This document shows, piece after piece, positions 58,188 through 59,865 of a stretch of 64,000 bases of DNA; the first letter of the stretch is position 1; every line of letters starts with the position of its first letter. The stretch is from Rhodothermus profundi (lineage in GTDB: Bacteria > Bacteroidota > Rhodothermia > Rhodothermales > Rhodothermaceae). Location of the stretch: contig NZ_FRAU01000001.1 in assembly GCF_900142415.1 (NCBI RefSeq), forward strand, positions 737,246 through 801,245, read 5' to 3'. The position numbers and the translations under genes were made by a program. The notes below the pieces were generated by a model that had not been told where the DNA came from, did no database searches, and worked only from the letters and a program-made list of their open reading frames with translations.

Positions 58188-58829
58188 ATGACGCACCTCC
58201 CAAGCTGGCGCAAAAACCTGCAGCGGCACAGTGGCTTCTGGCGCGATGGGTACTGGTATGATCTGCATCTGGAGCGTCGGATGCCGCTGGCTCTGGAGAT
58301 GATTGACGAGATGGTGCTGGCGCTGCCTCCCCTGCGCGAGGGCACGCGCGTATGCGATCTGGCCTGCGGCACGGGCAATGCGGCCGCAGCCGTAGTCTCA
58401 GCTTATCCCTTGATCCACCTGACGCTGATCGACCAAGACGCTGAACTGCTGGCTATCGCCTACGACAAAGTAGCCGACTACTGCCCGGACGCTACGACCA
58501 TTCAGGCTACCCTCACCCCTGACGGCGAGCCATTGCCGGGAGCTCCTTACGACGTCGTGCTCGCCTCCCTGGCGCTGCATGTGCTGGTGCGGCACGATAC
58601 CGACCGCACCGATCCAGCCGAGGCCGAAACCCGCTACGAGCTGCTCCTGCAGAGTATCCGGGATTCCCTCACGCCAGGTGGTCATCTGATTATCGGTGAC
58701 CACGTGGGCGTACTGCCCCTTTATCGCCATCTCAAAGCACTTGAGCGAAGCGGCTTTGTCGATGTGGACTGCGCCTGGCGCGTAGATGACTTTTTCGTGA
58801 TTGGAGGCCGCGTGCCCGGTGCGCCTTAA
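58188..58829 (+). CDS. SAM-dependent methyltransferase
   Basis: A 213-residue class I methyltransferase from ATG 58188 (a TTG at 58140 would add 16 residues). Motif I is RVCDLACGTGNAAAAVVSA near residue 57, the acidic residue after it is TLIDQDAELLAIA near 83, and PYDVVLASLALHVLVRHD follows near 122. The C-terminal half has a hydrophobic helix that could pack against a small substrate. The target is not evident. It ends four bases inside the convergent recombinase-like gene. Confidence 0.85.
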   Translation: MTHLPSWRKNLQRHSGFWRDGYWYDLHLERRMPLALEMIDEMVLALPPLREGTRVCDLACGTGNAAAAVVSAYPLIHLTLIDQDAELLAIAYDKVADYCPDATTIQATLTPDGEPLPGAPYDVVLASLALHVLVRHDTDRTDPAEAETRYELLLQSIRDSLTPGGHLIIGDHVGVLPLYRHLKALERSGFVDVDCAWRVDDFFVIGGRVPGAP

Positions 58830-59788
58830 CCCAACAACCGCTTGAGCTCTTCGGGATCGCGGTTAAGCAATCCCTGCTTGCGATAGTAGATCATTGTGGT
58901 CTCCAGCGTGCCGTGGCGCATGCGGCGACGGACTTCTTCGACCGACATGCCCTGGTTCAGCCAGATGAGCGCGGCCGTGTGCGTCAGGCTATGGGGGGTC
59001 ACCCCCCGTCGCGTAATCCCGGCTGCTTCCAGATGCTGCCTGATACGGCTGCGCACCGAACGCGTATTGAGTCGCTGCCCTTCGGAGCGATGCCCATGCG
59101 ACACAAAGAGGGGATCGTTCGAGCGCAGCGGCCTGCGCGTGTTCAGATAGGCCTGCAACGCTTCCACTACCGGCGGATCCAGCGGCACCTGCTGATCTTT
59201 GGCCGTGTGTCCTTTGCCCTGCACGCGCAGATACCAGCCCAGCAGCGTCTGATCCAGATCGCGCACGTCCGCCCGAACGAGCTCTACTTCGCTCAAACCT
59301 GCAAACAGCATCATATGGACCATAGCCCGATCGCGCAGTCCGATCTGAGACGTGTCCTGCTCCAGCACAGCCAGCAACTGATCAATTTCTACGCGCGTGA
59401 GCACCGAACGCGAATGGCTCGACGGACGCCGGTTACCTTTGACCGTTCGCGCCGGATTTTCTGCCAGCAGGCCAATATCCACCAGGTACTGGCAGAAACG
59501 ACGCAGTGCCGTCAGATAGGTCGAAACCGATACCTGATGCAGCTTCTTTTCCCGCATCAGATATTGCTTATAGCGCTGCACGTCGGCTACTCGAAAGCGA
59601 AACTGCCCTCGCTGCCGGGCAAACCAGCGCTCGAATTCATGCAGGGCCCGCCGGTAGGTACCAACGGTCTCCGGACTTTTGTTTTTCAGATACTCCAGTT
59701 GGAAATCCTGAATGCGCCGCTGCAACTCACCCAGTGTTAGCTGCAACCCCTCCTCCGGGCGCCTGGCCGCCACCTCCCGTTTGGCCAT
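58826..59788 (-). CDS. Tyrosine-recombinase-fold protein lacking both catalytic arginines
   Basis: A 320-residue XerC/D-like protein. The N-terminal SAM-like core-binding domain (about 25-115) starts LGELQRRIQDFQLEYLKNK, and a catalytic-type domain follows. Expected catalytic residues are R-K-H-R-H-Y. Here the first Arg is Ser (GLSEVELVR, where XerD has GLRVSELV), and the second is Thr (PHSLTHT, where HxLRH is usual). The hairpin Lys (QGKGHTAKDQ), the first His, the His of RHGTLETT and Tyr in MIYYRK remain. The gene is intact, so it is not simply decayed. Strand cleavage looks unlikely; a DNA-binding or accessory role fits better. A CGTACG-TATT-CGTACG element lies 20-35 bases upstream. Confidence 0.82.
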   Translation of the reverse strand: MAKREVAARRPEEGLQLTLGELQRRIQDFQLEYLKNKSPETVGTYRRALHEFERWFARQRGQFRFRVADVQRYKQYLMREKKLHQVSVSTYLTALRRFCQYLVDIGLLAENPARTVKGNRRPSSHSRSVLTRVEIDQLLAVLEQDTSQIGLRDRAMVHMMLFAGLSEVELVRADVRDLDQTLLGWYLRVQGKGHTAKDQQVPLDPPVVEALQAYLNTRRPLRSNDPLFVSHGHRSEGQRLNTRSVRSRIRQHLEAAGITRRGVTPHSLTHTAALIWLNQGMSVEEVRRRMRHGTLETTMIYYRKQGLLNRDPEELKRLLG

Positions 59789-59807
59789 AATTACGTCCTG
59801 CCTAGTC

Positions 59808-59823
59808 CGTACGTATTCGTACG
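59808..59823. promoter_or_regulatory. Doubled CGTACG palindrome upstream of the recombinase-like gene
   Basis: CGTACG, TATT, CGTACG: each half is itself a palindrome, so the two form both a direct and an inverted repeat. It lies 20 bases before the start, just downstream of a possible -10 (TATTAT on the minus strand), where an operator or protein-binding site for autoregulation would sit. A strong purine site (AGGA, seven bases before the ATG) follows. Confidence 0.45.
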
Positions 59824-59865
59824 TGTAATAATACAGCCGTCGGGAGCGAAGATCAATAACGGCTT

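Follow-up and report, generated by a model that had tools for sequence, protein, structure and literature searches.

A catalytically inactive Xer-like protein of Rhodothermus profundi as a candidate polar replication-terminus protein

The 64,000-nucleotide stretch of Rhodothermus profundi DNA analysed here (the window) encodes a member of a protein family, family A, which is probably a non-cleaving Xer derivative turned into a polar, self-regulated replication-terminus protein that acts on single half-sites. A polar terminus protein is the most economical reading of inward-pointing single sites, a switch of the GC skew at these sites and a site in the gene's own promoter. All three, as well as the catalytic losses, the purifying selection and the co-distribution of the sites with family A, were computed.

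Results

The features of the window that are referred to below are the following.

58826–59788, minus strand: family A gene, predicted catalytically dead Xer-like protein of 320 aa, with an ATG start and Ser166 and Thr269 at the arginine positions.
59396–59533, minus strand: helix and linker codons (VSVSTYLTALRR...VKGNRRP...HS, residues 86–131), presumed DNA contacts from conservation and homology.
59828–59856, minus strand: sigma70-like promoter read from the sequence, with a −35 box TTGATC (59851–59856), a 17-bp spacer and a −10 box TATTAT (59828–59833).
59854–59862, minus strand: CCGTTATTG promoter site, candidate autoregulatory, overlapping the −35 box and lying within GCCGTTATTGATC at 59851–59863.

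The family A protein was found to be as an earlier note on this DNA had described it, with an intact frame of 320 aa in which alignment places Ser166 (GLSEVE) at the Arg I position and Thr269 (HSLTH) at the Arg II position, and in which Lys192, His266, His270, His292 and Tyr301 are retained. In a profile alignment, the sequence of the crystallised XerD aligns without a gap at both arginine boxes, so the arginines are not merely shifted to nearby positions, an outcome that the note had considered. The protein has the core-binding and catalytic domains of the tyrosine recombinase fold, detected as SAM-like and Pfam Phage_integrase (90 bits) domains, and the structural modelling that had been proposed as a check gave a confident AlphaFold2 model (mean pLDDT of 95) that matches XerH, XerA and Cre at Z values around 20, the XerH and Cre structures being DNA-bound. 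MrpR/YopR and SroF were also among the fold matches, and on the question of a Tus or RTP family the sequence and fold searches returned recombinases. The scores against the XerC and XerD equivalog models (142 of 335 and 132 of 330 bits, respectively) lie far under the cut-offs, and in the tree family A forms one clade with 100% support, apart from XerC, XerD and the recombinase groups B and C, in such a way that neither score nor placement makes it an XerC or XerD orthologue; this tree is a quick FastTree with long branches, and its deep order is uncertain.

Family A orthologues were found in most of the 60 relatives searched, the bulk of them 60–92% identical and six (family f15) 36–42% identical. 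In a class-wide profile search, nearly all Rhodothermales genomes and those of the KatS3mg041 lineage (f21) had a single copy each, and those of Balneolales none; Chlorobia, Ignavibacteria and Kapabacteria also have the protein in a phylum-wide sample. The branching broadly follows the lineages, and family A is a single-copy, vertically inherited gene. A mobile origin was considered and discarded, as no relative appeared in the viral contigs scanned and the best plasmid matches were annotated integrases with 33–35% identity. A constant partner gene was also sought by synteny and rejected, the neighbours being dus/recO in Rhodothermus, lipoyl-E2/secA/recN in other families, and leuS or pgk in other classes. 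The dN/dS values of the window's gene against its congeners (0.025–0.054) denote strong purifying selection, so it is no decaying pseudogene. Searches of the open-access literature gave no report of family A or of terminus sites in these bacteria.

The catalytic set Arg-Lys-His-Arg-His-Tyr is incomplete throughout the order. Both arginines are missing in the Rhodothermales orthologues, not in this copy alone, and the Ser/Thr pair is nearly invariant, with Ala for Ser in a few of them. Further losses differ between clades: in Rubricoccaceae the Tyr is replaced by Ser in addition to the arginine losses; family f15 has lost the His, mostly the Tyr, and the VKGNRRP motif; in KatS3mg041 both arginines and the second His are lost; in Chloroherpeton, Arg I and the first His; and in Kapabacteria and Ignavibacteria, Arg I and two histidines, with Phe and Ile/Leu at the histidine positions. 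One Chloroherpetonaceae sequence (L136) retains the full set. Despite these losses, VSVSTYLTALRR, VKGNRRP and the TRxxR recognition segment are conserved. Thus, with different clades losing different catalytic residues and the DNA-binding parts conserved, the sequences argue that family A is not an enzyme, and the purifying selection and repeated loss of Tyr and His support the note's proposal that the protein was selected for a function without cleavage, for instance in chromosome regulation or in binding DNA at specific sites. The results below go beyond this proposal and point to one particular task on the chromosome, at the terminus of replication.

Substitute residues have been proposed for recombinases that do not have Arg I, such as IntDOT, and family A could in principle still be a recombinase of this kind, given that most Rhodothermales retain Lys, His and Tyr and that Arg291, beside His292, is near-invariant. 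We consider this very improbable, as both arginines are gone, Tyr and His were lost several times in orthologues in which the gene was retained, and the terminus sites described below showed no paired half-site.

The word CCGTTATTG is concentrated in one zone of complete genomes, where it changes from the plus to the minus strand on passing a centre from left to right. The sequences of these zones gave a longer site, CCGTTATTGCAA(n3)AAAA, and in all the well-assembled genomes examined the copies of it are clustered at the replication terminus. The sites flank the terminus and point inwards in 12 genomes (G000, G001, G002, G004, G008, G012, G016, G018, G028, G049, G189 and G205); in the window's own genome the plus sites are at C3:35585, 89796, 103598 and 105542, and the minus sites at 157028, 164176 and 190505. 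In the zones of eight genomes, 55 of the 57 sites point inwards (P 2e-14), and the two outward ones sit within around 0.3 kb of the skew-estimated centre, so that effectively all 57 are inward. There were 43 exact sites in these zones, whereas shuffled words gave 0.07 on average; of two control termini, taken from genomes that do not have family A, one contained a single site and the other none. The sequence TTATTGCAA of the site resembles the XerD arm TTATGTTAAAT, that is, one Xer half-site, as expected for the monomer of a Xer derivative. The sites were rejected as KOPS, since they are too few and are not present in Balneolales, in spite of the FtsK gamma domain retained there. In the terminus zone of Chloroherpeton (L286–L295), a separate word set from ATTGCACCAATGTGGAATTGAAAC is repeated around 160 times, probably as a large CRISPR array.

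The position of the sites in the GC skew was also analysed. In four of eight genomes (G000, G001, G012 and G016) the change point of the skew lies at most 60 bp from a site, a coincidence reached in none of 200,000 random shifts. In the genome that contains the window, the skew falls from +0.087 outside the innermost left site to 0.0015 in the interval between the innermost pair, and to −0.064 past it, and the same holds for G001. It is in precisely this interval, bounded by the innermost sites of opposite orientation, that G000 and G001 have a skew near zero. The change point of G002 is at a pair of degenerate copies (CCGTTATTGCTATA), which was noticed after the fact and stays outside the count of four in eight. 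Two genomes count against a terminus protein: in Salinibacter (G018) the skew switches 9 kb from the nearest site, and in G189 it does so at the canonical dif candidate and not at a ter-like site. Candidate dif sequences are flanked by sites in G189 and in Chloroherpeton, both of which have canonical XerC/XerD.

Canonical XerC, canonical XerD and a recognisable dif all seem to have been lost from the Rhodothermales (G000–G059), in which the FtsK gamma domain persists. XerD above the cut-off was found in none of the Rhodothermales genomes searched and in 18 of 18 tested genomes of neighbouring clades, a canonical dif was not found by pattern in most Rhodothermales tested, and the gamma domain is kept in 29 of 29 genomes tested. 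In most genomes, recombinase B or C is encoded close to the point on which the inward sites converge, and may replace XerCD/dif in dimer resolution; a dif for B, sought at skew maxima through inverted repeats, gave no convincing result. In Salinibacter-like genomes (L176, L177 and L178), a recombinase B that has lost catalytic residues adjoins a second tyrosine recombinase gene. A heteromer of family A with recombinase B was rejected, as B is found in Rhodothermales alone and many genomes with family A do not have it. More generally, the idea of the earlier note that the protein could partner an active recombinase has lost ground, since family A co-occurs with canonical XerCD, group B or group C, and tracks none of them.

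The retained FtsK gamma domain in an order without canonical XerCD and dif, together with B or C near the inward-pointing centre, would also suit a role of family A in segregation and not in fork arrest, in which, on the terminus sites, it would act as a guide or a stop for FtsK, organise the terminus or help B or C in dimer resolution. This seems unlikely to us: the sites are few and long, unlike the frequent 8-bp KOPS, they are also present with intact XerCD/dif and in genomes without B, and the skew, level from one innermost site to the other, shifts at the sites themselves, as expected for the meeting points of forks.

The numbers of sites were then compared with the state of family A. There are around nine sites per genome in Rhodothermus, eight in the Salinibacter group (f13), nine in f3 and 4.5 in f21, the last two without B; G013 and G188/G189 have sites and no recombinase B either. 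In f14, where the contact residues of family A are changed and recombinase B is intact, the figure falls to 1.2 per genome; in f15, where family A has diverged and lost the VKGNRRP linker motif, to 0.5; and in Balneolales, without family A, to 0.66. Residues 86–131, presumed to be part of the DNA contacts, are the segment lost or altered in families whose genomes do not have the sites. The correlation suggests that site counts follow family A and the state of its presumed contacts, not the other recombinases. The families f2, f4 and f10, with a well-conserved family A and only one or two exact sites per genome, count against the terminus-protein reading; in these families the site may have drifted, or else the link is incomplete. 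The metagenome-assembled genome G027, with eight sites and no family A found, is probably explained by an assembly gap.

The promoter of the family A gene is conserved in the congeners as TTGACC...TATTAT. Upstream of the orthologues of Rhodothermales, CCGTTAT is found in 63 of 72 cases, compared to 0.7 expected, always on the strand of the gene and usually as CCGTTATTGAC over the −35 box, so that these 63 genes have a ter-like site in their own promoter. Outside Rhodothermales no copies were seen in family A promoters, which counts against a terminus protein. A CGTACG inverted repeat between promoter and start codon (window positions 59805–59825) was discarded as an operator, since among the congeners only this genome has it.

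Further copies of CCGTTATTG were noticed near other genes. Three of them (one on the plus and two on the minus strand) are upstream of a gene similar to those of B12-dependent ribonucleotide reductases in G012 and G016 (L264, L265, L329 and L330), which suggests a small regulon tied to DNA synthesis; as the binder would then also look like a transcription regulator, these copies count against the terminus-protein reading. In two families, two same-strand copies 54–55 bp apart are found directly downstream of a rhomboid-like gene (L326 and L327).

It is conceivable, if rather doubtful, that family A represses transcription in the manner of MrpR and acts at the CCGTTATTG-type promoter sites (its own and that of nrdJ), the terminus sites belonging to another protein. 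MrpR, a dead tyrosine recombinase, is a proven DNA-binding repressor (PMC10516654), it and SroF are fold matches of family A, and the promoter-type sites (CCGTTATTGA/G) diverge from the terminus sites (CCGTTATTGCAA) past the ninth base. The nine-base core is, however, common to both types, and the terminus sites come and go with family A and its contact residues across the class, and two unrelated proteins with one core and one distribution are a less economical explanation.

Discussion

A scheme for the preferred reading, that of a polar replication-terminus protein, would be as follows. A tyrosine recombinase of the Xer type would have lost DNA cleavage, and we infer that family A binds a single half-site, asymmetric and Xer-like, with the sequence CCGTTATTGCAA(n3)AAAA. 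The terminus has copies of this half-site on either side, from a handful to around a dozen, all directed inwards. The bound monomer would let a fork coming from the CCG side pass and would resist one coming from the CAA/A-rich side, in such a way that forks could enter the terminus but not leave it. The family A gene would itself be repressed through the variant site that overlaps its −35 box, in the way that tus and rtp are repressed through ter sites.

A review of fork traps describes only two chromosomal ones, Tus in some Gammaproteobacteria and RTP in Bacillus, and the genes tus and rtp are each autoregulated by a ter site (PMC10331603). Like family A, the Tus-Ter system of Escherichia coli and the RTP-Ter system of Bacillus subtilis have few asymmetric inward sites flanking the terminus, dif or the terminus between the innermost pair, a skew switch at the sites, and a site in the promoter of the terminator gene (PMC10331603, PMC8707476). 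Unlike them, family A has a tyrosine-recombinase fold, another site sequence and another phylum, and its fork arrest is a proposal of this work. With XerC and XerD it shares the domain order, the best profile matches and the Xer-like half-site, whereas it forms a separate clade with lost catalytic residues and coexists with canonical XerC and XerD in other classes. The closest parallels for the protein itself are MrpR/YopR of the prophage SPbeta and SroF of phi3T, with the same fold and replaced catalytic arginines and histidines; MrpR has Ser, Val and Asn at catalytic positions, and keeps Lys, Tyr and DNA binding (PMC10516654). In contrast to this prophage repressor, family A is a vertically inherited chromosomal gene linked to the terminus, and was not found in the viral contigs scanned.

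On balance, we lean slightly towards a third, independently evolved fork trap in Rhodothermales, some Chlorobia and relatives, consisting of a dead Xer terminator on single half-sites that in Rhodothermales outlived canonical XerC, XerD and dif. A fork trap is in itself a function of a known kind, and the novelty would lie in the lineage of the protein, in its site and in the phylum. The finding raises the question of how chromosome dimers are resolved across a whole order without canonical XerCD and dif. If true, a third trap in another phylum, built from a dead recombinase, would mean that fork traps are more widespread. It would also provide a natural experiment on the reasons why bacteria need such traps, and an example of an enzyme that has been converted into a road-block on the chromosome.
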